Shown: positions 7,901 to 34,554 of the stretch, piece by piece | Layout: each line of letters starts with the position of its first letter | How positions within the stretch are numbered: position 1 is the first letter of the stretch | Assembly (NCBI RefSeq): GCF_001262715.1 | Contig: NZ_CP012328.1 | Coordinates: 868,001-932,000 of the forward strand | Direction of reading: 5' to 3' | Origin: Spiroplasma turonicum | Lineage (GTDB): Bacteria; Bacillota_I; Bacilli_A; Mycoplasmatales; Mycoplasmataceae | DNA length: 64,000 nucleotides | Program-made: the position numbers and the translations under genes | The notes under the pieces: generated by a model | The model's database searches: none | Told to the model about the DNA's origin: nothing | What the model saw: the letters and a program-made list of their open reading frames with translations, nothing else

Positions 7901-7976
7901 TATCATTAAATAAATCTCTATAATTTTCTGTTAATAATATGTCTATTAAACCTCTTTTTCATTCTTTATTACTCAT
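4938..7976 (-). CDS. PLD-like nuclease / superfamily 2 helicase / DUF3427 protein
   Basis: One 1012-residue frame (TGA = Trp at several places). Domains in order: an N-terminal region of unknown fold (1-125); a phospholipase D-like nuclease half with HIK (His194, Lys196) followed by GSSN (212-215); a DEAD/DEAH helicase with Walker A MATGTGKT (333-340), DEAH (430-433), motif III LTATPER and motif VI QQLGRGLRKS; and a C-terminal region resembling DUF3427. Proteins of this architecture are scattered in bacteria and often proposed to act in DNA restriction or repair, but the biochemical role is not established. It stands alone next to IS and empty DNA, divergent from tag, which fits an accessory or horizontally acquired gene. 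Only one PLD motif is visible, so the nuclease would need to dimerise. Confidence 0.85.
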
Positions 7977-13139: not shown

Positions 13140-15455
13140 ATGAAAAAATTAATAAGAACACTTGTTGCCCTTACTTTTTTATCAACCCCAGTAACATCAG
13201 TTGTTGCTTGTGGTAAAAAAGAAAAAAATACAGGGTCAAACAACGAAAAAACATTAACTGATCTGCAAAATGATATGTTAGATGGAGCAAGTTTTTTATC
13301 AAAAATGATATTATCAGGAAGACATGAAAACCTGAATTATAATGTAAATGAAATTTTATCAATGTACTTAACCCCTATTCCAACTGCATTAATGATGCCA
13401 GTTAACTATAAGTTTAATAATGAAGACATTAATTTCACAACAAAACTAAATAAATATAAAAGCTTATTAGCACCTTCAATAAATAAAATAAATAATGATA
13501 ATTATTCAGGGATATTTACTAGTTATGTAATGGGAATGTATGACAATGATTTCTATAATAACTTTTTAAAAAATGGTTATTTTGAAGATTCTTTTAATCA
13601 AACTGGTGGAAAAGGATTCAATAAAAAATCAGATAATGAGCTTGGAATCCTTGCTGGTTTTGATAAAGACTTAAAACTTTCAGAAGAAGAAAATAGAAAA
13701 AATCTAGCTTGAGCAATTCAAGATACTGGTGCACTAACAAACTATCTACTAGATAAAGGTTATGATGGTTCTTATCCAGGAGATACAAATGGAACAAGTA
13801 GTCCTAAAAGTTCTTCTAATGATAAAAAAGGTGGGACTAATGGTAGTGGTTATTTATATTACAATTCAGTTGTTTCCAAAGGAAAAGGTTCATATAATGC
13901 AAATAAAATTAAAAAAGAATTAAAAGACAAAATAGATGAAACTAATGTTTTTGAAAAAGCTAATATAACAAAAAAAGATTACTCTTCAAAAATTAATGGT
14001 TTATCATTTAATAAAACCGGTTCAATGATTGCAAATACTGCAGGAAACTTAAATGTTCAAGGATATATAAATAATTTCTCATCTATAATTGATGCTGTAA
14101 GTGAAAGTGATTTTGGAGCAGAAGCATTATTAAATGTATCAAATTATATGACTCCACTTTTAATTAAAAAAGGTGATACTTCATACACTATGATGCAATT
14201 AATAGCTACAAGTATGATTCAAAATATTCAAAATGTAATTAAAGATATTCAAGAAAATGAAGACTTTAAATTGTTTTTAAAAAATAAAGGTTTTGATGAA
14301 AATACGCTAAACATAACTTTCTCTAAGTTTGATGAAATTGGAGCAGGTGATTTTGGTATTCCAGGTTTTATAGAACCAAAATATAATAAGGCAAAAATAA
14401 CAAGACTTTACGACAGAGATGAAAACTCTGAAGTAAGTCCATTAGATAATCTTAAAAATGTATCAAAATTTCTTAACGAATTAGCTAAATTACAAAAATC
14501 ATTAACAAATGAAGAAGACATAAATAAACTATTGGTGGAATTATACACTGGAGAAGATTCAATATTTAATGATTCATATGGACTTATTATTAATGGTGCA
14601 TTAACAATTAAAGGTATTGGTCAAGAATCATGAGTAAAATTAGTAGGCAAAAAAGCCGAAGGTGCTACAAATTTATTATCCCTATTATCAAATGTTTATA
14701 ATGATTTATCAAAAAACGAAACTAAAGAATTATTATTAAGTGTTTCAAATAACGAAATATATAATAATAAAGCAATTTCTGATTTAAGTAGAACTGAAAA
14801 AATGAAACTAATTAAAGAATTAGGATATGATTACAATGAAAAAACATATACTGAAAACTCTTTCTTTAAAAACTACTATAATTCATTAAAAGATACTAAC
14901 AAAGAAGGAGTTAAAGAAATAAACGACTTATTTAAGTATTTAAAAGAAGGTTTAAATGATGCGATGAATGAAGTTCACAATAAGGCATTACAATACATAT
15001 ATGATGACAAATATTGAAAAACTTCAAATGTAACTTTAAATGCCACTGATCCATCAGAATTAAATGCTAAAATGGAATTTACATTAGAGTACAATGGTAT
15101 TGGAGATGCAGAATCAAACGCTGACTTACAAACTACTAAAATTGATGTTCCAAATAACTTTAATCCTTATCAAACAAAACTTAGCCATCAAGAAGATTAT
15201 TTAAAAAATGAAGAATTAAATAGCCAAGTAGATAAAAATAAAGTTTCAGGTAAAGTACTTGGTAAAGAAAAACTTAATCTTGATGATAATGGGTTAATTA
15301 ATTATGATGGTAAAGGTGAAAAATACAAAAATGTAAAACATAAATATAATATTGTATGACAAAACATAAGTAATAGTTCCGACAATCCTTATTGAGTTAT
15401 TGTTGATGTTAAATCATATAATGAAAATGGTGAAGAATTCTATAACATATATTAA
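13140..15455 (+). CDS. large paralogous lipoprotein 1 (MOLPALP-like)
   Basis: 771 residues behind GAGGAGG. The signal peptide MKKLIRTLVALTFLSTP ends in VTSVVAC, with the lipidated Cys near residue 24. Shared with its two paralogues: SMYLTPIPTALMMPV, WAIQDTGALTNYLL, GGTNGSGYLYYNS, KTGSMIANTAG, ALQYIYDDKYWK and the C-terminal end EEFYNIY. It has no recognised enzymatic domain. The organisation (long, Asn/Lys/Ser-rich, tandem copies) resembles the paralogous Mollicute lipoproteins annotated as MOLPALP; I recall that family only loosely. All apparent interruptions are TGA-Trp, so the gene is intact. It is exported and anchored on the outer face of the membrane and probably faces the host. Confidence 0.8.
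13603..13900 (+). repeat. near-identical direct repeat within lipoprotein genes (copy at 16923-17220)
   Basis: This ~300-base block of lipoprotein 1 is nearly identical at the nucleotide level to 16923-17220 in lipoprotein 2, at a constant offset of 3320. The adjacent middle parts of the two genes are clearly diverged. This is a mosaic pattern expected from recombination or gene conversion. Confidence 0.75.
15031..15455 (+). repeat. near-identical 3' direct repeat of lipoprotein genes (copy at 18345-18769)
   Basis: The last ~425 bases of lipoproteins 1 and 2 align without gaps at a constant offset of 3314 and differ at few positions. Lipoprotein 3 is similar in protein but clearly diverged in DNA here. 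Confidence 0.8.
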
Positions 15456-15480
15456 AAATAATAATTTTAAATTGATTAAT

Positions 15481-15537
15481 AACATATTCTACATGCTGTC
15501 TTGAATATAATTCATAAAGTAAAGAATATGTTTTTTT
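15481..15537 (+). terminator. probable terminator after lipoprotein 1
   Basis: AACATATTCT (15481-15490) pairs with AGAATATGTT (15523-15532), followed by a T7 tract. The 32-nt loop is long but contains its own small inverted repeat (GAATATAATTC). Confidence 0.55.
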
Positions 15538-15619
15538 ATGTCGATTTTATAAAAGAAATATATAAATTTAAAAATAAAACATAAGTGTTTCAATATTATA
15601 GCAACCCTATAATTTTATG

Positions 15620-15625
15620 TATAAT
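15620..15625 (+). promoter_or_regulatory. extended -10 promoter for a leaderless transcript
   Basis: TGTATAAT with the last base six positions before ATG 15632 and no Shine-Dalgarno, matching the arrangement at 12343-12348. Confidence 0.55.
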
Positions 15626-15631
15626 TAATAT

Positions 15632-16360
15632 ATGAACAAAAGAAACTTAGACACAAATAAAATCTCAATTAAAAAAGATATACTATATATTTTTATGATA
15701 GTTTTGTTTTTAACAAATATATGTGGTTTTGAAAATGGAACATCTAATCTTATAAATGTACTAATATATTTTGATATTTTTATTATGTTTTTATGTTTAG
15801 TTTTTAGAATTAAGTTATTAAAAAATATTTATAAAAATGTTAATACTATTTCAATTAATAACAAAAACATAATTAAAAATATATTCTTTATAAACTTATT
15901 TATAATTATAATAATTTTTTTATTGTCTTTATTGATAATTAATACAAGTGTCGAACAGTTAATTAATATTAGTGAAACTTTGAATAAATTTAAAATAAAT
16001 CATAATTCAAATGAATATTATAAAAATTTATTTAAAATGAATATAATTATACTTTATATATTATGTTTAATATTTATGATAAACATTTTTATAAGTTATG
16101 CTATTGCAATAAATATGTATAACGCATTCAAAATATTCAATAATTATTTGAAAAAATTTATAATTTCTTTAGTTATATTAACTAAAAAGAGACTTTCTAG
16201 ATTAATAGAAATTTTTTTAATTCTCAGTTTTTTATTAATACAAAAAGAAATTGTTTTAGTGATTTTTAAAATTAAACTATTTAAAGAGTATTTTTTATCA
16301 AATATATATTACAAAATAGTTCAAAACAATTCTTATTATAAATGAGTTTCAATACCTTAA
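15632..16360 (+). CDS. multi-pass membrane protein, array paralogue 2
   Basis: 242 residues, paralogous to the protein at 12355: same N-terminal pattern (MNK..., KKD), IYFDIFI in the second helix, SYAIAINMYN in the fourth and the same C-terminal tail ending YKWVSIP, where the Trp is TGA at 16343. Four hydrophobic helices are visible, followed by a basic, isoleucine-rich tail. No known family recognised. It lies 48 bases upstream of lipoprotein 2 and is probably co-transcribed with it. Translation seems to be leaderless. The repeated pairing with a lipoprotein suggests a membrane-embedded partner, possibly for export, anchoring or immunity-like protection; none of these can be shown from sequence. 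Confidence 0.7.
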
Positions 16361-16408
16361 TTTTTATTTAATTATTTTAAAAATAAAAATTAGAGGAGAT
16401 GAAATAAA

Positions 16409-18769
16409 ATGAAAAAATTAATACGAACACTAGCAGTTCTAACTTTTTTTGCTACCCCTATTTCAACAGTAGTTGCATGTGGCAATAAAGACAAATCAAA
16501 AGATTCTGATAAAAATAATGGTAATGGAAATGAAGACCCAAATAACCCAATTGATCCTAACTTACCAAATGATTTAACTGAATTACAAAATCAAATGGTA
16601 GATGGAGCAAGTTTTTTATCAAAAATGATAGTTTCAGGAAGACATGAAAACTTAAATTACAATATAAATGAAATACTTTCAATGTATTTAACCCCTATTC
16701 CAACTGCCATGATGATGCCAGTAACTTACAAATATAAAGACAATGAAATTAATTTTGCTTCAAAACTTGAAAAGTATAGAAGTCTATTAGCTCCATCAAT
16801 AAATAAAATAAATAATGATAATTATTCAGGTGTATTTGCAAGTTATATAATGGGAATGTATAATAATGATTTTTACAATAATTTCTTAAAAGATGAGTAT
16901 TTTGAAGATTCATTTAATAAAACAGGTGGAAAAGGATTTAATAAAAAATCAGATAATGAACTTGGAATTCTTGCTGGTTTTGATAAAGACTTAAAACTTT
17001 CAGAAGAAGAAAATAGAAAGAATCTATCTTGAGCAATTCAAGATACTGGTGCACTTACAAACTATCTACTAAATAAAGGTTATGATGGTTCTTATCCAGG
17101 AGATACAAACGGAACAAGTAGTCCTAAAAGTGCTTCTAATGATAAAAAAGGTGGGACTAATGGTAGTGGTTATTTATATTACAATTCAGTTGTTTCCAAA
17201 GGAAAAGGCTCATATAATGCTATTAGCTCAAAAAAAACAATAATTGATAAATTAAGTATAAATGATACTTTTGAAGCTGCTAATCTTAAAAATAATGAAT
17301 TCTCATCAAAAATTAATAATATGTCATTTAATAAAATTGGTTCAATGATTGCAAATACTGCAGGAAGTTTAAATTTAAAGGGTTATATAAATAACTTTTC
17401 ATCAATGTTAGATAATGTTGATGAATCAGATTTTGGAGCTGAGGCCTTAATAAATGCAACAAATTACTTTACACCATTTTTAGTCAAAAAAGAAGATACT
17501 TCTAATACAAGAATACAATTAGTGGCTTTAAGTTTATTATTAAATGTTCAAGAAGCATTAAAAAATATTTTAAGTAATGACAATTTAAAAACATTTTTAA
17601 TAGAAAATGGTTTTAATGAAACATTATTAAATAGTAGTTACAGTTTTAGTGAAGCAATATCTTCTTCCCAACTTATGTTTCCGAATCCTGAAACAGCAAA
17701 AATTACAAATATTTATAAAGAAAACTTAGAAAAAATAGACCCTATTGAAAACTTAAAAAACATATCAGACTTATTAAAAGAATTTTCTAAATTCCAAGTA
17801 AATCTAAAAAACCAAGAATTAATTGAAAAGTTTAAAAATGATTTTTTTATATATAAAAAATCACCATTTTATAAATCTTATTCGTTAATAATTGATGCAA
17901 ATATTTTTTTTGTGGGAAGTCTTGGAGGTATCGGAGTTGATGGTTGAAAACAACTTGTTGGTGAAAAAGTTGAAGGAGGTTCAAATTTACTTAATTTATT
18001 GTCAACTACTTATAACAAGTTAGCTAATATTGACACTAAGGAAATCTATGAAAATATTTCTAACGATGAAAATTTTAAAAACAAAAACATTAGTGATTTA
18101 ACAAGAAAACAAAAACTAAATTTAATTAAAAGATTAGGTTATGACTCATCAGAAAAAAAATATACAAAGGACTCAATTTTATATAATTCTTATAATCAAT
18201 TAAAAAACTATGATAATGTTGGTGTAAAAGAATTAAATGAATTATTAGTCTATTTAAAAAATAGTACTAATGAATCTATGAAACCTTTACACGAACAAGT
18301 ATTGCAATATATTTATGATGACAAATATTGAAAAACAACTGGTATAACTTTAAATGCCACTGATCCATCAGAATTAAATGCTAAAATGGAATTTACATTA
18401 GAGTACAATGGTATTGGAGATGCAGAATCAAACGCTGACTTACAAACTACTAAAATAGATGTTCCAGATAACTTTAATCCATATCAAACAAAACTTGAAC
18501 ATCAAAAAGAATTTTTAAATAATGAAGAATTAAATAGCCAAGTAGATAAAAATAAGGTTTCAGGTAAAGTACTTGGTAAAGAAAAACTTAATCTTGATGA
18601 TAACGGGTTAATCAATTATGACGGTAAGGGTGAAAAATATAAGAATGTAAAACATAAATATAAATTAGTGTGACAAAACATAAGCAATAGTTCTGACAAT
18701 CCTTATTGAGTTATTGTTGATGTTAAATCATATAATGAAAATGGTGAAGAATTCTATAACATATATTAA
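16409..18769 (+). CDS. large paralogous lipoprotein 2 (MOLPALP-like)
   Basis: 786 residues with an AGGAGATG Shine-Dalgarno. Signal peptide MKKLIRTLAVLTFFATP with lipobox STVVAC. Behind the Cys there is an Asn/Asp/Pro/Gly-rich linker (residues about 27-55) that is longer than in lipoprotein 1. The same conserved blocks are present (SMYLTPIPTAMMMPV, WAIQDTGALTNYLL, ALQYIYDDKYWK, EEFYNIY). Two stretches are almost identical in DNA to lipoprotein 1, while residues about 330-560 are strongly diverged. The gene is intact under code 4. Role inferred: surface-exposed variable lipoprotein; no binding partner can be named. Confidence 0.8.
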
Positions 18770-18857
18770 TAAATGATAAGGTGAATGAAAACTCTTTTTA
18801 TTAATATTTGTTTATAATAATAAGGTAAAAATTAATATCTTTTAGAATGAGGATAAT

Positions 18858-21191
18858 ATGAATAAACTAACTAAAATATTAGCAGCAGTAATTTTTTTTA
18901 CAACGCCAACAATATCAGTTGTTGCATGTGGAAAGAAAAGTAATGACAATGAAAACAATGATGCAAATATAACTACAGATTTACAAAAAGAAATGCTAGA
19001 TGGAGCTGAAATAATGTCAAGGTTTATTTTAGCAAGTAGACATGAAAATCTAAATTATAATTTAAATGAAATACTTTCAATGTATTTAACTCCTATCCCT
19101 ACTGCTTTAATGATGCCAGTAGCTTATAAATATAAGAATCAAAATATAAATTTTAATACAAAAATTAATTCTTTTAAAAACTTATTAGAGCCAAACTTAA
19201 ATAAAATAAATAATGATAATTATTCAGGTGTATTTGCAAGTTATTTAATGGGAATGTATGATGATTCATTTTATGAAAACTTTATTAATAATGGTTATTT
19301 TGAAGATTCATTTGATGAATATGGGCATACTGGTTTTAATAAATCAAGTAACAATGAAATGGGAATACTTGCAGGATTAGATAAAGAATTAAAACTTTCA
19401 GAAAATCAAAGTAGACGAAATTTAGCTTGAGCAATTCAAGATACAGGTGCCTTGACAAATTATCTATTAGATAAAGGCTATGATGGTGCATTTCCTGGTG
19501 ATACAAATGGAACAACAAGTCCTCAATCAAGTTCAATTGATAAAACAGGTGGTACAAATGGTAGTGGTTATTTATATTACAACTCCATTATCTCAAGTGG
19601 TAAAGGAACTAAAAATGGACTTAAAATTGCAAATAATAGTGTTACTGAAAAATTAAGCGAAAGTAATACTTTTGAAGCTGCTAATCTTAAAAATAATGAC
19701 TTCTCATCAAAGATTAATGGTATATTATTTAATAAAACTGGTTCAATGATCGCAAATACTGCAGGTAGTTTAAATATGAAAGGATACATAAATAATATGT
19801 CTTCTCTTTTAGAATCAGTTAATGAATCTGATTTTGGAGCTGAATCACTACTAACTTTATCTAATTACATTACTCCATTATTAATAGATAGTAGTAGAAC
19901 TAGTGATTTAATAATGCAAGCTGTAGCATTTAGTTTATTAATTAATTCTATATCTTCAATAAACACTATACAAAATAAAGATTCAAAAATATATAATTAT
20001 TTGAAATCTAAAAATTTTAATGAAGAAGTTTTAAATACTAAAATTAATCATAGTGACCCAATTGATTCTAAATTATTAACTAGTTTAAAAATTTCATCAA
20101 CAATTGAAAGTAGTATTGAAAAAATTAAAACAATTAGACTATATAGTCAATCTGAAAATGAATCTGAACCATTAAAAAATTTGAAAAATATATCTGATTT
20201 TTTACTTGAGTTAAAAAGTTTTCAATCTCAATTAAGTGATGATGATAAAAAAGAATTTGCAAATTTACTATTTTTAGATGATGATTCACCTTTTAAGACA
20301 AATTATAATTTAATTATTAAAGCTAATATATCTGGGTTTGACTTTGGGGGTGTTGGAGAAGATGGTTGAAAAGCAATGATTAAAGAAGATGCATCAGGTG
20401 CAATAAATCTATTAAATTTAATTGGTAGTGCGTTTGATGGGTTATCAAGTAATGAAAGTATGGAATTAGTTAAGTCCATTGATAAAAATAATGATTATAA
20501 AAATAAATCTGTATCAGATTTAACAAGAAAACAAAAACAAACTTTGATTAAAAACCTGGGTTATGATTATTCAAATAAAAAATATATTGATGATAGTTTC
20601 TTCAAAAATTATAATCAATTATTAACTAATACTGGAATACCTGGTGTCAATGAGTTAAAAGACCTGTTTGAATTCTTTAAAAAAAGCACCAATGATTCAA
20701 TGCAATTAGTTCATGAACAAGCCTTGCAATATATTTATGATGATAAATATTGAAAAATGACTAACAAGAATATATCTTCAACAGATCCAACAGAATTGGG
20801 AGGTAAAATAGAGTTTACTCTAGAATATACAGGAAATGGTGACTCTGATTCTAATGCATCTAATCAATTAACAAAAATTGATGTACCTGAAAATTTTAAC
20901 CCTTATCAAACAAAAGTTGATCATCAACAAAAATTTTTAAAAAATAATAATTTAACTGATAAAATTGATTCTAAAAGAAAATCAGGAATAGTTTTGGGTA
21001 AAAGCCTCTTAGGTTATGAAGATAAAGATCTAATAGAATATGATGGAAAAGGCGAAAATTATAAAAAAGTTAAAAATACTTACAAAATCATTTGAGAAAA
21101 TATTAGTAAAAACTCTGACACACCTCATTGAATTGTCACTGACATTAAATGTACAAATGAAAATGGTGAGGAATTCTATAATATATATTAA
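18858..21191 (+). CDS. large paralogous lipoprotein 3 (MOLPALP-like)
   Basis: 777 residues, start ATG behind GAGGATA. Signal peptide MNKLTKILAAVIFF with lipobox ISVVAC. It keeps all the conserved blocks of the family (SMYLTPIPTALMMPV, WAIQDTGALTNYLL, GGTNGSGYLYYNS, SDFGAESLLTLSNY, ALQYIYDDKYWK) but is the most diverged copy, lacks the near-identical DNA blocks and has no membrane-protein gene in front of it. It follows lipoprotein 2 by 88 bases. It ends at a strong terminator. It probably represents an older duplication than copies 1 and 2. Confidence 0.8.
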
Positions 21192-21216
21192 AAAAACTCT
21201 TAACAGAGTTTTTTTT
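21191..21216. terminator. bidirectional intrinsic terminator
   Basis: AAAAAACTCT (21191-21200) pairs with AGAGTTTTTT (21205-21214) around a 4-nt loop. It separates lipoprotein 3 from the convergent small membrane protein, whose stop codon lies in it. Confidence 0.9.
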
Positions 21217-21679
21217 ATAAATCATAATTTGAACTATTATTAACATTTGAATCATTTTCAAAAATTGGTGTAATTGGTTCATTATTTTTATTTGCCATTT
21301 CATCAATAGTTTTAGTTTCTGCTTTACCTACTAATATTAAAATTCCTCCTACTAAAAGACTAGTGAACAAACCAAAAACACCTGCTCATATTCTAACTTT
21401 TACTTTACCCGATAAAAGCAATGATGATAAAATTATGTTTAATAATGCTAAAATTACAAAAGATATGCAAATTCCAAGTGAAATACGTGCCATCATCCTT
21501 GTATATGTTGCAAATTTTTCAAATTGTTCTTCATTATTTTTATAATCCTCTTTCATTTTTTCTATTGTACTTTCAATTGCCATAGCAGAAATTGCATTTA
21601 AAGAACCATAAAGTATAACTATAGAACTTATTACTATAACTACAATTGCTCCACCCTTACATAATCCATTTATTTTCAT
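21215..21679 (-). CDS. small multi-pass membrane protein, cassette A
   Basis: 154 residues; TGA at 21386-21388 is Trp. Start MKINGLCKGGAIV behind GGAGA. Hydrophobic helices lie at about 8-32, 65-90 and 100-118; the third ends in VGGILILVGKAE. The pattern [VI]GG-x-L-x-L-x-GK at the end of the last helix and a Lys-Gly/Ala-Gly start after a short polar N-terminus are shared with the proteins at 23922 and 31176. The C-terminal 35 residues are polar and Asn-rich, probably cytosolic. Each of the three genes sits next to a DUF3137-like gene. No known family recognised. Confidence 0.75.
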
Positions 21680-21721
21680 ATTATATTCTCCTATATATTA
21701 ATTATAAATTAATTGTATTTA

Positions 21722-22738
21722 TTAATAAATACTTTCAACATACACTAATGAATTAATTATTAAATTTAAATCCCTTTTAAGTTTTTTTGATAATCTCTTT
21801 TTAAACTCTTTATAACTATTTATACTTTTATACTCAATAACACCTAGTGGATAATCATTTATTCTTGTAGACTTTTTTTTATGTACTACATGAAAGTTAT
21901 TATATATACTTAACTTATGAAAGTTATCATCATTTTCTATACTCATTAATTTATCGATCAACTTTGGAGTTAAAAACATTGCTGCTCTAATATCATTTGA
22001 TTTTAGATTTATATCATATTTTCTATTAAATAATTCCGATTCTGTTTGATAGTTTTTATCAAATTTGGTCCCTTTTGATACAACAATATTATTATAACTT
22101 TCATCAAATTTATCATTTTTATAATAAAGTTCATAAATAATAGTATAATCCACACGAGTTGTTTTACCATTTGAACGAACTGTCTTATAAGGATCATTTA
22201 TAAAAAATAATGAATTTTTATTTTTAAAATTAAAAATAATATTATTAACACTATTTTTTTTATCATCAAAACTAGTATTATTAAATTTTCTCTCATTTGA
22301 ATAAAAGCTTATAGTAGAGTTGTTATAAATAAACTTAATATCATTAATCAAATTTGAATAGCTTGAATTGAATAATATTCCGTTATAAAGCCTTGTCATT
22401 CGATCATTTTTAAATTGTAAGTTAGCAATTTTTTTAAATGAATTAAAAAAACCAAAATTATAAAACCTAGACAAACCATAAATTACAATTAATATAAAAC
22501 CTATTCCAATAATCAAAAAAGATATAATCATATTAATTGTTAAATTATTTTTTTGGTTTGTTTTTAAGTCAAATAAAGTATACTTTAAAAGACCACCTAA
22601 TAATAGTAATACTCCAATTATTAATATTAATATTCTAAAAATTATTAATCTATTTATAACTTTTAATAAATTTTCAAATTCTTTATCTTCTTTAAACTCA
22701 CTATCTATTAAATCATCAATTATACTATCTTCCATCAT
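21722..22738 (-). CDS. DUF3137-like membrane protein, cassette A
   Basis: 338 residues, start behind AAGGGA. Two membrane helices at about 32-52 and 65-90, then a soluble domain of ~240 residues. The domain contains the block YQTESELFNRKYDI ... IRAAMFLTPKLIDKL, shared with the proteins at 24395 and 30034; this block resembles DUF3137, where a similar phrase precedes a conserved LTP motif. The function of DUF3137 is unknown. The start of the small membrane gene follows after 42 bases on the same strand. Topology predicted: both termini inside, with the domain cytosolic. Assignment to DUF3137 is by eye and should be treated as likely, not certain. Confidence 0.7.
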   Translation of the reverse strand: MMEDSIIDDLIDSEFKEDKEFENLLKVINRLIIFRILILIIGVLLLLGGLLKYTLFDLKTNQKNNLTINMIISFLIIGIGFILIVIYGLSRFYNFGFFNSFKKIANLQFKNDRMTRLYNGILFNSSYSNLINDIKFIYNNSTISFYSNERKFNNTSFDDKKNSVNNIIFNFKNKNSLFFINDPYKTVRSNGKTTRVDYTIIYELYYKNDKFDESYNNIVVSKGTKFDKNYQTESELFNRKYDINLKSNDIRAAMFLTPKLIDKLMSIENDDNFHKLSIYNNFHVVHKKKSTRINDYPLGVIEYKSINSYKEFKKRLSKKLKRDLNLIINSLVYVESIY

Positions 22739-22878
22739 TAATTCCCTTCATAAGTTTATAATACCAAATATAAATATAAACTTGATATTTATATTAAAAA
22801 ACTATTGCATTAAACCTACTTTAATATTTTAAAATAATATAGAAGAAAAAACTCTTCAAACATAGAATAGAGGTAATT

Positions 22879-23898
22879 ATGAGAGCAATAATCGTTAGTG
22901 ATAATAAAGAAGAAATTGTAAAGTTAGTTGAACAAGAAGAACCAAAAAACTTAAAAAATGGTGAAGTTTTAGTTCAAACAACCTTATGTAGTCTGTGTCA
23001 TAGTGATTTACATATGGCACAAAACCCACTTAATATAGGAGTTTCAATTGGCCATGAATCAATAGGAAAAGTTTTAAAAGTTGGTGAAGGAGTTAATAAA
23101 CTGAAAGTTGGTGATTTAGTTGGTTTTCCAGCTGGTTTACATGGAGCATGCGGTAGTTGTTATTATTGTAAAAATAATGATGAAGTTTTCTGTGAACAAG
23201 CAGAATATACAACTGAAAGAGGTTATGGTACTATGCAAGATCTATCAATTGAAAGAGAGGATTATTGTATAAAACTTCCTGATAATATTGATTTAGGTGC
23301 TGCTTGTATAGCAACATGTGCTGGTATTACTGTTTATAAGGGTTTTAAATCATCGAAAATTAAAGAAGGAAGTATTGTTGCAATATTTGGAATTGGTGGT
23401 CTTGGTAATGTTGCTGTTGAATATGCTAAAAACTTTTATAAAGCAAAAGTTATAGCAATTGGTTCAAATAAAGATAGTTTAGAAATTGCAAAAAATAAAG
23501 GTGCTGATTATGTTATAAATTGAAAAGAAGAAAACTTCAAAGAGAAGTTGTACTCAATTTCACCAAGAGGAGTGGACGTTTCATTAGTTACTAGTTCTAC
23601 TTCAGAACAGTTTAAAATGGCTTATGAAACATTATCACCAACTGGCCAACTAATTGCAATAGGACTTCCACCTGAAAATTTAGAAATAAATATACCTGAT
23701 TTAGTTATAGGTGGAAAACAAATAATAGGATCATTGATTGGTAATAGAAATGATTTAAAAGAGTGCTTTGATCACCTTGTAAAGAAAATTTTTAATCCTG
23801 AATATGAAATCGTTAATATTGAAGAAGCTCCAAAGTACTTTAAATTAATGAAAGATAATAAACTATTTAAAAGAATCGTGTTTAATTTTAATAAATAA
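22879..23898 (+). CDS. zinc-dependent alcohol dehydrogenase
   Basis: 339 residues, normal length, behind an AGAGGTAA Shine-Dalgarno. Catalytic zinc ligands: Cys in SLCHSDLHM, His in GHESIGKV and a later Cys (AACIATCAG region). Structural zinc site: CGSCYYCKNNDEVFC. Rossmann NAD(P) motif IFGIGGLGNVAVEYAKN. The best match is the AdhP/AdhA group of propanol-preferring alcohol dehydrogenases, which interconvert short-chain alcohols and aldehydes with NAD+/NADH. TGA at 23521 encodes Trp. The gene has its own terminator and sits, on the opposite strand, between two cassettes of the DUF3137 cluster, so it looks inserted and not part of it. Confidence 0.92.
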
Positions 23899-23924
23899 AA
23901 AACAGATATAAATCTGTTTTTTTA
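23897..23924. terminator. bidirectional intrinsic terminator
   Basis: AAAAAACAGAT pairs with ATCTGTTTTTT around a 4-nt loop, between the alcohol dehydrogenase and the convergent small membrane protein. Confidence 0.9.
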
Positions 23925-24344
23925 ATCAATAACAATCAATTTTTCTTCCTTTACAATTTTGTTATCAGTTTGCTCTTCATTTTCATGATTTTTGTATTTA
24001 CCACAAAGCATTAATACACCACCAATTATGCCTGCAAAAATTATCGATAAAACTGAAGGTAATATAATTGATTTTAAATTACCTTTTAATGCATATGCAG
24101 TTAATACTATTGTTGGTATACAAAATGTAATTGATATTATATAAAATATAACTTTTAGAATTTTCAATCCTCTATCTATTGACTCAATATTATTTGAATC
24201 ACCAAATATTCTAATCAAATCTTTGTCAATTTTATTAAAATTAATTGCTAATAAAAGAATATTAACAAGATTTAAAAATAAAATAACAGAAGCTAAAGAT
24301 ATTGTCACAATACAACCCGCTTTACATAATTTATCTAGTTTCAT
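23922..24344 (-). CDS. small multi-pass membrane protein, cassette B
   Basis: 140 residues behind AAGGTTGG. Start MKLDKLCKAGCIV parallels MKINGLCKGGAIV of cassette A. Helices at about 10-35, 62-85 and 93-115; the last ends IGGVLMLCGKY, the shared [VI]GG-x-L-x-L-x-GK signature. The C-terminal tail is acidic and polar. It follows the DUF3137-like gene of cassette B by 50 bases on the same strand. Not a recognised family; likely a membrane partner of the DUF3137-like protein. Confidence 0.75.
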   Translation of the reverse strand: MKLDKLCKAGCIVTISLASVILFLNLVNILLLAINFNKIDKDLIRIFGDSNNIESIDRGLKILKVIFYIISITFCIPTIVLTAYALKGNLKSIILPSVLSIIFAGIIGGVLMLCGKYKNHENEEQTDNKIVKEEKLIVID

Positions 24345-24394
24345 AAACCAACCTTCTTTTTTTTATTATATATTAATAAATGATTAAAATATTT

Positions 24395-25423
24395 TTACAA
24401 TGCATCTATTAAAAAATTTATTGAGTATGATAAACGTTCTATATCATACAATAACTTAGTATATAATTTTTCTTTAAAATCGCTGTAATTTTTAATATTT
24501 ATATAATTTAGAATTCCAATTGGTAAAAAACGGTCATCATATTTCCTACTATATGAATCACCAAGAAAGTATAGATAATCATTTACTCCTATTTCTAACA
24601 TATCTTTTGTATTTGCATTAGTTACTCTATCAATAAATTTTGGAGTTAAAAATAAGGGTGCTCTTAGATCATTTGGATTAATGTTAATATCAAACTTTTT
24701 ATTAAACAACTCTGATTCAGTTTGATAAAAAGGATCAAAAGAATTAGCTTTTATTAATCTAAGACCTTTTAATTCATTAGCATATTTATAATTAAAAATC
24801 ATTAATTCAAATCTTGATCCATAAGATTTTAAAATATTTTTACTATATTCTTCAGTTGGTGAAGAATTTGAATTCAAATCAGTATAAAATTTTGCAGGTA
24901 AACCATTTATCATAAAATCAGCATAATTTTCTTCATTTGATGCATATATACTAATAAACTCATATTTACCAGTTACTTGGTTTTGTTTAATGTGTATTTT
25001 TTCGTTAAAGAATATTCTAAAATCTGTTATTTTAACTTTTTTGTAAGTGTTTTTAATGTAAAACTCATAAAGTAATGAAGTTTTATCACCTCTAAATTGT
25101 TGAACTGCTAAATATTTTTTATTAATATTCTTTACAGAGTTTTTATTTATATTTTTAACTAGTCAAACCACAAACAAGACTATTGATGTTATGAAAAAAA
25201 CAGATGAAATCATTCTCAAAACTGTTTCTAAAAGTGAATTTTTAAAGAAGACTATTGAACCAAAGAATCCAACAATAGAAAGCACAAAAAAAACTATTGT
25301 TAAAACAATTAGAATAATTAAAGGTTTCTTTTTTGATTTATTTTCTTGATTAAATAAACTCATAAATTTTTCATCATTTTTAAAAATTTCATCAATTTTA
25401 TTTAAAATATCTATTTTATTCAT
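24395..25423 (-). CDS. DUF3137-like membrane protein, cassette B
   Basis: 342 residues; TGA at 25163 is Trp and joins the N-terminal membrane part to the soluble domain. Start ATG behind AAGGAT. An acidic/basic N-terminal stretch (1-34) is followed by two membrane helices (about 35-57 and 66-90) and a ~245-residue domain with FYQTESELFNKKFDI ... LRAPLFLTPKFIDRV, closely matching the cassette A and C proteins. It lies 12 bases after the multi-pass membrane gene at 25436 and 50 bases before the cassette B small membrane gene, so these three genes probably form one transcript. Confidence 0.72.
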
Positions 25424-25435
25424 AATAATCCTTAT

Positions 25436-26206
25436 CTATTTATTTAATTTAAAATTTCTTTCTTCAAGTTTATTTTTTAATTTATATAATAAATTGTTTA
25501 TAAATACTAATAAATAATGTTGAGCAACAATTCATATTATAAAAATTATAGTTAAAATAAACATATAAACTCCAACATTATTACCAATTCATAGTCTACC
25601 AGTTTCAAATTCCATAAATGGGTATGGTCAAACTGATCTATTATCTTTTAAATACATTAATCCCCTAACATAAATAAATAATAAATAACCAAATGGGTAA
25701 GCAATTGATATATAAATATCTTTTTCAATAAAGACTTTTTTGTAACTAATTTTATTTTTACCTGTTGTAATAACAAAAAGTATCATTAGATAGAGTGGAC
25801 AAATAAAGTGAGTCGCTATTGTGCAAGCTATTTGATTTTTTGTGTACTGAGTTAACGATTGACCTTGATAAAATAAATCAGAAATCACCGCTGCTCAAAA
25901 AATAAAAAATACAATTAAGTTTCAATTCATTAAACTTAATAAGAAACCTGTTCCATTAACTCCTATTGGTTTTTTATTATAATTAAAAATTTTTATTATG
26001 AGTCAAACAATTGTAATTATGTTAACATGAACAGATAAAAAACTCATTAAATAGTCATAATTCATATAACTTGAAGTTGCACTATATCAATATTCATTAA
26101 AACAGCACTCGTATAAACCTCAAATTAACATTGACAAAAAGAAAATCATTAATATCAAATAACTATATCATACTGGACTTTTATAAAAAGCTTTTTTGTC
26201 TAACAT
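25436..26206 (-). CDS. Pr6Pr-like multi-pass membrane protein 1
   Basis: 256 residues with many TGA-Trp codons. Start ATG 26206 lies behind AGGGGG. Six or seven membrane helices are visible. Landmarks SVHVNIITIVW, THFICPLYLMILF, AYPFGYLLFIYVRG and WPYPFME match what I recall of the Pr6Pr family (six-helix proteins of unknown function with a conserved SN, H-x-P and a YPF near the end); this assignment is tentative. Two more copies of the family occur at 35303 and 54466. Here the gene is first in a probable operon with the cassette B genes, downstream of the AAA+ pair on the same strand. Confidence 0.6.
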
Positions 26207-26265
26207 AATTACCCCCTAAATCACTTTTATGATTATAACATATAAGAGTTGGAATTAATTTCAAA

Positions 26266-28071
26266 CTACTCTGATATACCTATTGAATTAATATCATCTA
26301 ATCATCGTAAACTTAAAGACTTTTTAAAATATGTATCTTTAATAAACTCATTGTTATTAAATAAAATTTCAGAGAAAGGTTTTAAAATAAGTTCATCTAA
26401 TTCTAATATTATTGCACGTGCTCCAAACTCAATAATACTTTCTTTGTTATAAACATAATCAATAATCTTATTTAAAACACTTGGTTCAATTTTTAACTCA
26501 ATATTATGTTCTTTATCTAAATTTAATCTAAAGTTATCAAGTTTAGATTTTATAATATTACCAATAATATTTTTATCCTTTAAATGATCAAAAATTATAA
26601 TATTATCAACTGAAATTCTATTTAAAAGTTCTGGTCTATTTAAAGTTTTTATAAAGTATTTTTTAGTCGATTCAAGAATATCATGTCTTAATCTATCTTC
26701 ACTTGATGAAAATGTGATATCATCTGTGCCAACATTTGATGTAAATATTATAAAAGTGTTTTGAAAATCAATATGTTCACCTTTAGGATCTGTTAAAACT
26801 CCATAATCTAATATTTGCAAAAATATATCTAAAACACTATTGTCAGCTTTATCAATTTCATCAAATAATAATAATGAGTTTGGATATTTTTTTACATGTT
26901 CTGTTAATAAACCTTTTTGTAAGTCATACCCACTATATCCAGGTGGAGGACCAACTAATCTTTGATCAGATTCTTTATGTTTATATTCACTCATATCAAA
27001 CCTTTTAAAGTTATTTTCATCATCACTTAACAATTTTGATAGTTCTAAAGCTATTTCTGTTTTTCCCACACCTGTTGGTCCTGTAAAAAACATTACCCCT
27101 TTTGGTTTTTTAGAATTTGATGTTGAAAGAATGTAATTTAAGTCTAAAAAAACCATCCTCATTATTGAATTAATTTTGTTAATAGCATTTTCTTGTCCTT
27201 TAATTTTTTTATTTAACATATTAGTTAAATTACTAAACTTATTAATTTTTTCTTTAGTTAATTGACTGCTGAAATTATGATTATGTAATTTTTGAACTTC
27301 AAAAAACTTATCATAAGGATTTTTAAATAATTCATTTTGTATATTAAAAATAAAATCAAACAATTTTTCAGACTTTTCATTTTGTAGATAATTATTAAGA
27401 TTTAAATTCAAATTATTATAATGGTTTATTAAAGTTTTTTCTTTTATTTTCAAATTTATATTAGGAATATTAAAATTAATTAACTCGATTCCTTCTCTAT
27501 TTAATTTATTAGTTATTGTTTTAACTGAAGGAATAACAAATATAAATGTTATGCTTTTTATCAATTTAATTAAATTAATATCATCACTGCCATATGTATT
27601 TATAATTGAAGATAAGAATTTATCTTCAATATAATTTATATAATTATTAAAATCAATTATGTTAAGAGGAGAAATTATAAATACTTTTTTTGATATTTTA
27701 TTTTCTTTTATAACATTAAAAAAATTATCAAATGAGGTATTTGGTTTAAGACTAAAGTTAGCTTCTTTTTTTAAATATTTATTTATTCAAACATTACAAC
27801 TTTTACCTGTATTATTTTTTATAGTTTCAAATGTTTTTGTTTTGTTTTCTAAAAGACTATGAAAGTAAGAGAAATATAAATTATTATTTTCTAGAACTTC
27901 AATTACTTCAATATCTTGATAATAGTTTTTCAAATTATTTATTGTATATCCAAGTATTTTGTCATAAGGCTGACCTACATCATTAAAATAAATATCATTT
28001 ATATTTCCAGAAATAAATAAAATATTTTTTTTAAAGATAAAATTTTTAATTTCATTTAAATTATAATTCAT
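26266..28071 (-). CDS. ClpB-like AAA+ ATPase B
   Basis: 601 residues; TGA codons join the segments. The start ATG (MNYNLNEIKNF) overlaps the stop of ATPase A by 11 bases, indicating coupled translation. The N-terminal ~270 residues have no P-loop and no Clp N-domain repeat. The C-terminal module is a full class II Clp/Hsp100 AAA+ domain: Walker A GPTGVGKT (331-338), pore loop PPGYSGYD (376-383), Walker B LLLFDEIDKA (DE 404-405), sensor 1 FTSNVG, arginine finger RPELLNRI and sensor 2 FGARAI. No ClpP-binding IGF loop was noticed. Family known: threads proteins through a hexameric pore. That the N-terminal part is an adaptor or degenerate AAA domain is inference. The target is unknown. Confidence 0.85.
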
Positions 28072-29950
28072 ATTCAATAACCTCATTTAATTCAACAATG
28101 TTACAATTATCTTCAACAAATCTTAATAAAATATTATCAACATATTGTTCATCATTAATACATTCAGAATAATAATTTAATAATCATTCAGATAATGGAG
28201 TTATTATTTTTTTATATAAATAATTTACAACACCTCTTCCTCCAACAATAGTCAAATCTTCTTCTTTTTTTAATAGTTCTATTAAATTAGTAATAAAAGG
28301 TTTATCATAAAAAATATTAATATTGTATTTCTTTATAAATCTTGCATTTAATAAATCTAGTTTTGAAATAATAATTTCTTTTAATACATTATCACTAGAA
28401 ATAAAGTTAAATGGTATTATATTATTTATACCAATTCTATTTAACAATTCTGGTCTTTTTAACTCTTCAATAAAATATTTTTTTACTGAATTAATTATCG
28501 ACTCTCTAATTGTAGATTCTTTTTGTGCAATATTTACAGCTTTACTACCAATATTAGAAGTAAATATAATAAAGGTGTTTTCAAAACTAACAACTTCATT
28601 TTTAGACGAAGTTAATATTCCATAATCTAAAATTTGTAAAAATAAATCAAGAATTTTATCATGTGCTTTTTCAACTTCATCAAATAACAATACACAAGAG
28701 GAATTATTTAATAAAACGTTGGTTAACTGCCCTCCTGATTTTGAACCTACATATCCAGGTGGAGATCCAATTAATTTTAAATCAGTATGCTCATGATTAT
28801 ATTCAGACATATCAAACCTAAAAAACTTTGTATTATCTTTAAAGATCAATTTTGCTAATTGTTTTGCTAGTTCAGTTTTACCAGTACCCGTTGGACCAAC
28901 AAAAAATAGAACCCCTCTTGGTTTTTTTGTTTTAGGATAAGAAAAATAATCTTTAAGTCCATAAAATGCAACATTAAGCGAAGACTGTATCTTTTCTATA
29001 GCATGCTTTTGTCCCTTAATTACTTTATTTAATATTACAGATGAGCTATTTATTGTTTCAATATTAGAGTTTTTTCAATCATTAATGTTTTCTTGCTTTT
29101 TAGTGTAGTATTTATTATTAGACTTATAAGGTTTTATATCTCATTTTTTTGCTAAATTTAAGTTTTTTTCATTTATAAAGTCAGTTTTTAAAAGTAAATT
29201 ATCTTCTGTAGTAAAATATTCTATATTATAAATTTCTTTAATATAATTTATGATAAATTGCTTAAAATCAAGATCATTTTTATTAACTTTTGACATTTTA
29301 AAAATACTTTTAATGTTTAAAGAAGAAGTGTTTTTTATTAAAAACCTTAATAAACTTTCGTTATATGGAATATTATTTGCTTCTTTAAAATTAAATATAT
29401 TGTAAAAATTTTTATAAAATATAAAACGTTCATTTTGAGTTGGATATCCTATTGACATAACTTCATAATTAATTGAATAATCAGTGAGTTTCTTCTTAAG
29501 TAAACTATCTTCATAAGTTATAAGTACAACCTTGTTAGCTAAATTAATATTTTGGTTTTTATTTTTTACATTTAATAATAAGTCTTTTAAAATTTGAACA
29601 ATATGATAATCATTAGACAGTTTATTATCAAAATAAACTAAAAAAATACAATTTTCACATTTTTTATTAACTATTTTATTATTGATTTTACTAATATAAT
29701 TTAAAAAACTATTTTTGTACATTCTAAAAAGTTCTGGTTTAGCAAATGAGTAATTTAAATTTCATTCGCTGTCTTTATTTGATAATAATTGGAAAGAATG
29801 AACTGAATTTTTTATTAAATCTTCTAATTCTATAATAATGAAGCTACCATCATTATCATTTATTAAAAAAAAATCATCAACATTACCATTAATTAATAAA
29901 AAATCATTATTTTTTAAGGATTTATTTATATCATAAATATAAGCCCTCAT
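28061..29950 (-). CDS. ClpB-like AAA+ ATPase A
   Basis: 629 residues. The start ATG 29950 (MRAYIYDINKS) is chosen over one 15 bases upstream because GAGGTG lies just ahead of it and because it aligns with ATPase B. The N-terminal ~310 residues resemble a degenerate AAA fold: NCIFLVYFDN looks like a Walker B strand without the acids and KVVLITYEDSLL like sensor 1, but there is no P-loop. The C-terminal module is complete: Walker A GPTGTGKT (352-359), pore loop PPGYVGSK (397-404), Walker B VLLFDEVEKA (DE 424-425), sensor 1 FTSNIG, arginine finger RPELLNRIG and sensor 2 GGRGVV. The shared N-terminal phrase (FLLINGNVDDFF here, LFISGNINDIYF in B) shows the two genes are paralogues. They may form mixed rings. 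Confidence 0.85.
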
Positions 29951-30033
29951 ATAAAAACACCTCATTCATTTTATACTATAAGTTTATAACATAATTAGGT
30001 TGTAAGTAAATAAATGAACTGTTTTTTTAATAA

Positions 30034-31041
30034 TTATATTAAAGCTTCAATGTATTTTAATGCTATAGACATATCATTTAAATCACTCTCTATTTTAGAG
30101 GCTACTTCGTTGATAAAATCATCATGACTTATTATTTTTAATAAATTTATAAAACCAATGGGTAATTCTTTATAATTCTCAGTAACTAATAAACTATTTA
30201 CATAAATTCCATTATCGATTAATATTTCATCAAATATATCGTTTTTAATATTAGATAATTTATCAATAGCTTTTGGAGATAAAACTAATGCAGCATTTAA
30301 GTTGTTATTTTTTGTTATTACAGAGTATTTTTTGTTAAACAAAGTTGACTCAGTCTTGTAATTATTTTTAAATAATGAGTGTTTTATTATTTTGATGTTA
30401 TTAAATGACTCATCATATTTTTTAGTTTCCAATTTTAAAGTATAATTAATTTTATAAATTGTAATAGTTTCTTTTTCATTAATTTTTTTTGTTTCAATTA
30501 TAGGTTTATTAATTATAAATTTACAGATATTATTTTTATACTTAAACATTAAATAATTAGTATTTCTTTCACCTTGTTCAAATATTTTTTTGATATCATT
30601 TTTATAAAAACTAGGTTTTGATTGGTAATTTTTTTTAAAAATAAATTGTACGTCCTTAATGTCATCTTTAAAATCATATTGGTTTAAAAACTCATTGTAT
30701 AAAGTACTCATATCTAATTCTTCAAAAATATATTTTTGCACTTTTTTATACGGTAATTTGAATATGTTTTGATTCTTATTTATTACAGTATATATAATGA
30801 AAAAAGTCAATAAAATTAAAAATATAATAATCAAGAATATTTTAATACCTAAAGTAAAGTCAAGAATTGTAAAAGAAAATATTGTTACAATCAGAACTAT
30901 AAAAGTTAAAAAAAAATATGAGAATGTCCCTAAATATATATAAGGTTTTATTTTATTAAATTTAATTAAGTTATTAATTTGTTGATTAAATTGAATATTG
31001 TTTTTTAGCTCTGATAAAGTTTTTGGATTATGTTTAATCAT
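30034..31041 (-). CDS. DUF3137-like membrane protein, cassette C
   Basis: 335 residues with no internal TGA. Start behind AAGGAG. Two membrane helices at about 35-60 and 66-90, then a soluble domain with NYKTESTLFNKKYSV ... LNAALVLSPKAIDKL, the same block as in cassettes A and B. The gene is 83 bases upstream of ATPase A on the same strand, so it may be the first gene of a transcript continuing through the ATPases and cassette B. It is divergent from the small membrane protein at 31176. Function unknown. Confidence 0.7.
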   Translation of the reverse strand: MIKHNPKTLSELKNNIQFNQQINNLIKFNKIKPYIYLGTFSYFFLTFIVLIVTIFSFTILDFTLGIKIFLIIIFLILLTFFIIYTVINKNQNIFKLPYKKVQKYIFEELDMSTLYNEFLNQYDFKDDIKDVQFIFKKNYQSKPSFYKNDIKKIFEQGERNTNYLMFKYKNNICKFIINKPIIETKKINEKETITIYKINYTLKLETKKYDESFNNIKIIKHSLFKNNYKTESTLFNKKYSVITKNNNLNAALVLSPKAIDKLSNIKNDIFDEILIDNGIYVNSLLVTENYKELPIGFINLLKIISHDDFINEVASKIESDLNDMSIALKYIEALI

Positions 31042-31112
31042 ATTTTTCTCCTTTTTACAATATTTATTTTATATACTTTAATCAACAATTGTATGTTATA
31101 GTTAAATTTTTG

Positions 31113-31143
31113 TTGATTTTATTCGATAATTAGTTATTATAAT
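31113..31143 (+). promoter_or_regulatory. probable promoter for the cassette C small membrane protein
   Basis: TATAAT at 31138-31143 with TTGATT at 31113-31118 (19-base spacer), about 33 bases before ATG 31176. A small inverted repeat (TTGACATTAGTCAA) follows just after the expected start site. Confidence 0.45.
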
Positions 31144-31175
31144 ATTGACATTAGTCAATAGAAAGGTTTATTTAT

Positions 31176-31520
31176 ATGAATGGAGTAGCAAAAGGTGGAA
31201 TTATTACATCATTTATAGGAGCAGGATTTTGTTGTATTATGGGAATCATATTTCTTTTTAGTAGTGCAGCTTTAACAAAAGTTGTATCAAATATTGACAA
31301 AACTGTAATAATTGCTATTGGTGTATTATTGTTGGTTGGTCCTGTTCTTGTTATAGTGTTTGGTTCATTAGCGCTTGCTAAAAAAACAAACGGCTTTAAA
31401 TTAGCTTGCGGAATAATTGCACTATTATGTGTTGTAGTTGCTTGGGCAGCCTATTTTGTACCTTTGATTTTATTTTTAGTTGGTGGTATATTAACACTTT
31501 GTGGAAAAGCTAACAATTAA
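31176..31520 (+). CDS. small multi-pass membrane protein, cassette C
   Basis: 114 residues behind AAAGGTT. Start MNGVAKGGIITSF parallels the Lys-Gly/Ala-Gly start of the other two cassette proteins. Four hydrophobic helices; the last ends VGGILTLCGKA, the shared signature. It uses the rare TGG codon for Trp, unlike most genes here. It is divergent from its DUF3137 neighbour, whereas in cassettes A and B the two are on the same strand. Family unknown. Confidence 0.72.
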   Translation: MNGVAKGGIITSFIGAGFCCIMGIIFLFSSAALTKVVSNIDKTVIIAIGVLLLVGPVLVIVFGSLALAKKTNGFKLACGIIALLCVVVAWAAYFVPLILFLVGGILTLCGKANN

Positions 31521-33159: not shown

Positions 33160-34554
33160 ATGCCAAAAATTTATGATATTAATATAAAAACTGAAGCCGT
33201 AAAAAGGTACAAAAACGGTGAAAATATAGACAAAATAGCTAATGATTTAAATATTAAAGCAGGATCACAATTAATAAGAATCTGATATAAGTCCTCAAAA
33301 TCTTGTTATTCTTATAGTATATATAAGGATTGCAAAGAGGTTAAATTGATGAGTCAAAAGTTAAAAAAAGATTTTATTTCTAAGGAACTTAAAGAAAAAA
33401 ATAAAGAAAATAAATTACTTAAGGACCGAATAAAAAAATTAGAAAAAAACTTAAAGTTTGAGATAGAAGAAAAAATGTTGGCAATAGCGAGTAAAGAAAT
33501 ATTGGAAAAGTCCATTCCTTCTTGCACGGCAACAATATTAATGAATTTATTGAAAATGAGCAAGAAGGAAAAGATAATGATAATGGCAACAAAAGCTTAT
33601 AAATATTATGCATGCTCTCAAATATATTATTTAGTTGCTAATTATGGCATGGGAACCAATAGGTTAATAAATTATTTTAAAGTTCATAAAAATACTTATT
33701 CGAAATTCAAAATGAAATTAAAATTAGAAAACCCTATTTTGTTATACAAATACAAGCTAAAGATTCCAACTATTAATAGCTTTGAAAATGAAAGATTTGA
33801 AAATGCAGTAGACTTAGTAAAAGATTTTAAAGAAGCAAATAATGATTTACAAACAGGTTCTCTTTTAATAAGGAAATGAATTTTTGTTAATAAGAATAAA
33901 AGAGTCTCTGAAAAAATGATTAACCTAATCAAAAGAGAAAAACCTGAGGTATTTAAAAACTCATTTAGTAGGGACAATTGCAAAAAATCAAGTTATTTCA
34001 ATGAATCTAAAAAACATAACTCTTATGTTAGAGATGATTTGATTGAAATGAATTACAATACTCCTAATGTAGTTGGAGTTGATGGTACTAATCTAAAAAT
34101 AGAATTAAATAATTCTTCTTATAAAACAAAATTAAATTGCATGATATCTTATGACTGGGATTTAAAAACTATTGTTGCATATAACTTTGATAAAAACGAA
34201 AATTCAAACAGCTCGTTAAAGGTTTTTAAAAGGATAAATGAGTATTCAGTAAACACTAATTCAAACAAAGTAATACAATCTGACAGAGGTTTAGCTTTCT
34301 CATGTGAAAAAATATTTGAATATGTAAATAAGAAGAATAATATAGTGCATTCTATGTCTAAAAGAGGTTTTAAACATAACGCCTCAACCGAAAGTTTAAA
34401 TAGATGAGTAAAAGAAAAGTTTTTTAAAACTTATGGGTGCAAATTTAAAAATATACAAAATTTTTATGATACTTTTAGAAAATTTGTTTATAACTTTAAT
34501 AAACTACAATTTTTGAAATATAATATATTTGATCAAAAAAACCAACATTTATAA
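33160..34554 (+). CDS. IS3-like transposase (single frame)
   Basis: 464 residues behind AAGGAA. An N-terminal helix-turn-helix (MPKIYDINIKTEAVKRYKNG) is followed by a coiled coil (about 63-115), a linker, and a DDE integrase domain: VVGVDGTNLKIEL (Asp), VIQSDRGLAFSCE (Asp) and HNASTESLNRWVKEKFF (Glu). OrfA and OrfB, separate and frameshifted in most IS3 elements, are fused here in one frame. All TGA codons are Trp. The gene is intact, so the element may be active. It is homologous to the broken transposase at 2992-4265. Confidence 0.88.

Follow-up and report, generated by a model that had tools for sequence, protein, structure and literature searches.

The first AAA+ module (D1) of the Pex1/Pex6 ATPases of eukaryotic peroxisomes is dead. 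One published account describes Pex1/Pex6 as a heterohexameric threading motor composed of two paralogues (PMC9265785). Among bacterial anti-phage systems with ClpB-like ATPases, the labels PDC-M37 and Dodola can denote the same genes (PMC11811056). Closer by ancestry to the genes reported here is an operon that joins an AAA+ ATPase to a helicase, a coiled-coil-like protein and, usually, a radical-SAM protein; searches of the open-access literature returned no description of this helicase/AAA+/radical-SAM operon.

Here we report two overlapping AAA+ genes, P0006 and P0007, that lie among genes for membrane proteins in Spiroplasma turonicum, a table-4 mollicute with a genome of 1.26 Mb. Coordinates below are positions in the window, by which we mean the whole 64,000-nt stretch of DNA that was analysed, read with genetic code 4 (TGA=Trp). 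Our preferred reading, to which we assign a probability of roughly 60%, is that the pair is an orphaned, tandemly duplicated and fast-evolving offshoot of the AAA+ motor of the mollicute form of this operon, and would act as an unfoldase in the manner of Pex1/Pex6.

Gene content and layout of the region

With genetic code 4, every gene named in the original prediction was recovered in place (Table 1). That prediction had the genes mostly on one strand with short gaps, and this agrees with the six-gene, same-strand run from 31041 to 23922 formed by P0008 (its upstream member), P0007, P0006, P0005, P0004 and smB, in which neighbours overlap or are separated by 12-68 bp. The region is broken up by an alcohol dehydrogenase gene that had not been listed before and that is no member of any system here. 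Promoter and terminator scans performed no better than shuffles.

Three further features of the window were observed in passing. A helicase with an NgoFVII-like PLD nuclease domain at 4938-7976(-) matches PADLOC mREase_IV (E 2e-71); an array of three paralogous lipoproteins of 771-786 aa occupies 13140-21191(+), where the syntenic place in the congener G006 has one; and a transposase-like gene lies near proC at 33160-34554(+), with an apparently identical stretch elsewhere in the genome (L085:13132-14034).

Table 1. Genes of the region, with positions in the 64,000-nt window.
Feature	Coordinates	Strand	Remarks
Small membrane protein P0001 (smA)	21215-21679	-	Three hydrophobic segments; kept at syntenic G006 place
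DUF3137-like membrane protein P0002	21722-22738	-	PF11335 sub-threshold, E 5.2e-4; kept at syntenic G006 place
Zinc-type alcohol dehydrogenase	22879-23898	+	PF00107/PF08240
Small membrane protein P0003 (smB)	23922-24344	-	Three hydrophobic segments; kept at syntenic G006 place
DUF3137-like membrane protein P0004	24395-25423	-	PF11335 sub-threshold, E 0.011
Pr6Pr-like multi-pass membrane protein P0005	25436-26206	-	Congener homologues at unrelated loci
AAA+ ATPase P0006, 606 aa	26266-28086	-	AAA_2 E 8e-44; intact D2 motifs
AAA+ ATPase P0007, 634 aa	28061-29965	-	AAA_2 E 1e-44; intact D2 motifs, P-loop-less D1
DUF3137-like membrane protein P0008	30034-31041	-	PF11335 sub-threshold, E 5.7e-4
Small membrane protein P0009 (smC)	31176-31520	+	Three hydrophobic segments; profile-only kinship to smA/smB

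The membrane proteins

P0002, P0004 and P0008 are paralogues with 27-34% identity to each other, and they are the only proteins encoded in the genome that match PF11335 at E<=1. Their scores of 15-20 bits (E 5e-4 to 0.011) fall below the family cut-off of 26.1 bits, which a relative in genome G027 exceeds (33.5 bits). The original description of these proteins as two-helix holds for two of the three, in which hydropathy gives two N-terminal transmembrane segments; the third has one clear segment. A structure predicted for P0002 from three sequences reached a mean pLDDT of 61; its soluble part was not good enough to be compared with known folds.

The small membrane proteins make up one loose family, in which smA and smB are clearly paralogous and smC joins by profile comparison only (hhalign 92%, E 6e-7). 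Of the three paralogous pairs of small membrane and DUF3137-like genes first proposed, the third is divergent, not collinear, and related through smC by profile alone. The proposed Pr6Pr-like gene, P0005, does encode a membrane protein, and the label rests on motif resemblance; no Pfam or NCBIfam match was obtained at E<=1.

In relatives, LemA-DUF3137-like pairs occur at L080 and L082. A LemA-DUF3137 pair also lies directly downstream of an AAA-radical-SAM operon in G027 (L073:8213-10482), the one such arrangement among seven loci of this kind read in the family.

Motifs and predicted fold of the AAA+ pair

The genes for P0006 and P0007 overlap by 26 bp, and the likely start of P0007 is M6, at position 29950. 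Walker A, Walker B, the pore-loop Tyr, the Arg finger and sensor 2 are all intact in the second module (D2) of both proteins. By sequence, a ClpB/ClpC-type D2 (AAA_2) with all five motifs classes them as Hsp100/Clp-type ATPases. Residues 1-290 of either protein hold no P-loop, Clp_N gives no Pfam match at E<=1, and the IGF/IGL loop used for protease docking is absent from both. Together with the AAA_2 matches and the gene overlap, these motif checks bear out the earlier description of two overlapping ClpB-like ATPases that lack a Clp N-domain and a D1 P-loop.

The predicted structure of P0007 (mean pLDDT 79, pTM 0.56) aligns over ~660-690 columns with two-module ClpC/ClpA chains, at TM-scores of only ~0.5-0.6, so that the relative placement of its two modules is uncertain. 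Because the model follows these two-module chains, the N-terminal half is best read as a degenerate D1. Identity between the two proteins is 16% in D1 and 45% in D2. Just 19 and 26 of 106 near-invariant columns are altered in the two ATPases, leaving ~75-82% conserved, and for this reason selection seems to be keeping the motor.

Both ATPases also match the PADLOC models DolB and PDC-M37B, at E 1e-15 to 1e-26, as would be expected if the pair were a minimal Dodola-like system against phages, with DolB-like ATPases and a DolA-like partner nearby. However, the genome's own ordinary ClpB is a better match to the DolB and PDC-M37B models (5e-30 and 4e-42), which makes the label unspecific, and none of the neighbouring proteins matches DolA. 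We consider this reading highly improbable and dropped the Dodola/PDC-M37 label.

Ancestry of the pair and its parent operon

In an AAA+ tree of 52 rows, P0006 and P0007 nest in the mollicute helicase-linked (A-type) AAA+ clade, comprising a 17-row clade supported at 97/98 and, within it, an 8-row clade supported at 99/99; membership of the 17-row clade holds with either protein left out. The genes of other clade members are part of the helicase operon described below. They are each other's nearest row, with support of 98/89, and on this tree they are probably sisters, that is, tandem paralogues. At 2.68 and 1.55, their end branches are 6-10 times as long as the median of 0.25. The sister grouping may thus be an artefact of long-branch attraction, as both end branches are long and an SH-aLRT value of 94 was not starred. 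Both proteins share a derived DYG[IV]LT, where EDGRLT stands elsewhere, and this points to a common origin.

Such long branches, together with a decayed related copy in G005 and a fragment in G006, would also fit genes that are drifting to loss and have no current function. Decay is nevertheless a very poor prospect, given that both frames, of 606 and 634 codons, are intact despite an AT-rich genome, that every D2 motor motif is retained and that the columns are conserved as noted above.

A plasmid or phage origin was considered and rejected: there was no plasmid match at 1e-60, and phage matches were partial, the best reaching ~45-48% coverage. Some of these partial phage matches are annotated as Clp proteins.

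The AAA family profile recovers whole-length relatives across the class, and named genomes with relatives include Mycoplasma, Ureaplasma, Treponema, Microbacterium, Veillonella, Slackia, Bacteroidota, Myxococcota, Planctomycetota and others. The parent operon comprises a Upf1-like superfamily 1 helicase (AAA_11/AAA_12), a ~650-780-aa protein, a ~320-400-aa coiled-coil-like protein, an AAA+ ATPase of ~600 aa with a P-loop-less D1 and, usually, a radical-SAM protein of ~190-205 aa (L029, L129, L132, L134-L137, L140, L143, L146, L157, L159-L164). The mollicute version has the Upf1-like helicase, a ~670-aa protein, a ~330-aa coiled-coil protein and the AAA+ ATPase, without a radical-SAM gene; it is represented by three full operons and two further loci (L024, L025, L026, L126 and L028, the last an AAA fragment only). 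All five adjoin type II restriction-modification, AIPR/AbiU, OLD/AriA-like or viperin-like pVip genes. The mollicute operon is mobile, set in defence islands and probably anti-phage; guilt by association suggests a defence function for the parent operon. In two Bacillota variants (L124 and L125), radical-SAM and AAA+ genes stand beside PP2C-like, FHA-like and possibly vWA-like genes as read by eye, which suggests a signalling-controlled form of the operon.

Beside the pair, the window contains no Upf1-like helicase, no ~700-aa gene (~670-aa in mollicutes) and no coiled-coil or radical-SAM gene of the operon. Searching the rest of the genome for an A-type helicase gave no match, and the same search also missed the genome's own C-type helicase. 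That helicase belongs to a C-type copy of the operon at ~1123-1133 kb (L029, G000:C1:1123000-1139000), which raises the question of whether the pair still serves in defence, with helicase and coiled-coil partners supplied from elsewhere, for example from this copy. The presence of the operon in the same genome and the intact motor motifs of the pair would agree with such an arrangement. We think it unlikely, as an AAA+ ATPase (596 aa) is already part of the C-type operon, the tree places the pair nearer the A-type clade, the A-type helicase search, though insensitive, was empty, and D1, a likely partner contact, is strongly diverged.

Distribution and synteny

The gene types were traced separately through 19 congeners. 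The AAA pair as such was found in none, and the combination of AAA, DUF3137-like and small membrane genes was absent from all 19. DUF3137-like genes are present in every one (E<=0.01), two of them weakly (E 3e-4 and 1e-3). Full-length close (A-type) AAA relatives occur in two (G001 and G004), where the nearest DUF3137-like gene is hundreds of kilobases away. In the nine genomes checked, homologues of the Pr6Pr-like protein have unrelated surroundings, with neither an AAA nor a DUF3137-like neighbour within ~1.5 kb on each side. A small membrane protein gene beside a DUF3137-like gene recurs in G006 and G012; the predicted co-occurrence is borne out for this pairing, and the AAA and Pr6Pr-like genes go separate ways.

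The syntenic site in G006 reads zinc-ribbon-like, SWEET-like, lipoprotein, smA, P0002 homologue, smB, proC and glutamine synthetase. Identities to the G006 copies are 42% for smA, 40% for P0002 and 34% for smB, and the block 24395-31520, with the AAA genes and P0008 included, is missing there. On gene order, the AAA pair seems to have been added to an older cluster of small membrane and DUF3137-like genes in a variable region. Two genomes are compared here, and addition is favoured over loss in G006 because the combination is absent from every other congener.

The original prediction had proposed one undescribed ATP-driven membrane machine. Across the 19 congeners, the gene types largely occur independently, with AAA genes away from DUF3137-like ones, a pattern named beforehand as speaking against that proposal, and in G006 the membrane genes stand without AAA genes. 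Given this distribution, the synteny and the different ancestry of the AAA genes, an integrated machine is not supported, and the region probably does not encode the one new machine of the original prediction. Genes of different history that lie together in a variable block had been taken for one.

A narrower form of the proposal makes P0008, P0007, P0006, P0005, P0004 and smB one operon and a lineage-specific membrane-coupled module, in which the DUF3137-like and small membrane proteins would present proteins for the AAA+ ring to remodel or extract. The tight spacing of the six-gene run suggests co-transcription of the pair with the membrane genes, which counts against our preferred reading; the DUF3137-like/small membrane pairing in G006 and G012 and the LemA-DUF3137 pair directly after the AAA-radical-SAM operon in G027 point the same way. 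Set against these are the absence of the combination from all 19 congeners, the independence of each gene type, the membrane genes of G006 that lack AAA neighbours and the finding that DUF3137 adjoins just one C-type AAA locus among those examined. We regard the module as doubtful. Equally doubtful is a version that accepts the ancestry proposed here, in which dead-D1/active-D2 paralogues from a mobile defence operon would have been rewired into a membrane-coupled unfoldase operon with DUF3137-like receptors in one spiroplasma-like lineage.

Discussion

If the pair is an orphaned offshoot of the mollicute operon motor, it would now stand apart from its operon partners, in a lineage-specific block among genes for DUF3137-like and small membrane proteins. 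Co-produced from their overlapping genes, P0006 and P0007 would assemble into one ring, probably a mixed hexamer; a mixed ring is suggested by the two paralogues with overlapping genes, as in Pex1/Pex6. The D1 tier would be structural, as it has no P-loop, and the D2 tier would hydrolyse ATP and use its GY pore loop to draw polypeptide through the pore. Pulling of this kind could unfold or dismantle protein complexes without the ClpP protease, in keeping with the missing IGF/IGL loop. The setting of the parent operon suggests a role, retained or repurposed, in conflict with mobile elements.

On this account, the motor of a widespread and apparently uncharacterised operon would have left that operon and duplicated in a small wall-less bacterium, and the pair would offer a compact bacterial model for studying paralogous unfoldases whose first ring is dead. 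The orphan pair may merit less attention than its parent operon, which occurs in many phyla and, among mollicutes, sits in defence islands.

The likeness to Pex1/Pex6 lies in the way of working only: two paralogous ATPases, a dead D1 and an active D2 that threads substrate. The pair is no relative at the family level, and the mixed hexamer is our proposal. With the Hsp100/Clp unfoldases ClpB, ClpC and ClpA, the pair shares the ClpB/ClpC-type D2 motifs and two AAA modules in the predicted fold, but differs from them in having no Clp N-domain match, D1 P-loop or IGF/IGL loop and in being encoded by two overlapping paralogous genes. DolB of Dodola (PDC-M37B) is likewise a ClpB-like ATPase in a small gene cluster, whereas the pair matches its models less well than ordinary ClpB does and the DolA partner was not found among the neighbours. 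For the membrane proteins, the closest described counterparts are LemA-DUF3137 two-gene operons, whose DUF3137-like family is that of P0002, P0004 and P0008; in this region, however, the partner is a small membrane protein in place of LemA, and the PF11335 scores are sub-threshold. With the AAA+ ATPase of the helicase/coiled-coil/AAA+/radical-SAM operon, the pair has in common the N-terminal GNxxD motif and whole-length homology at 27-39% identity; it is set apart from that ATPase by its tandem duplication and much longer branches.
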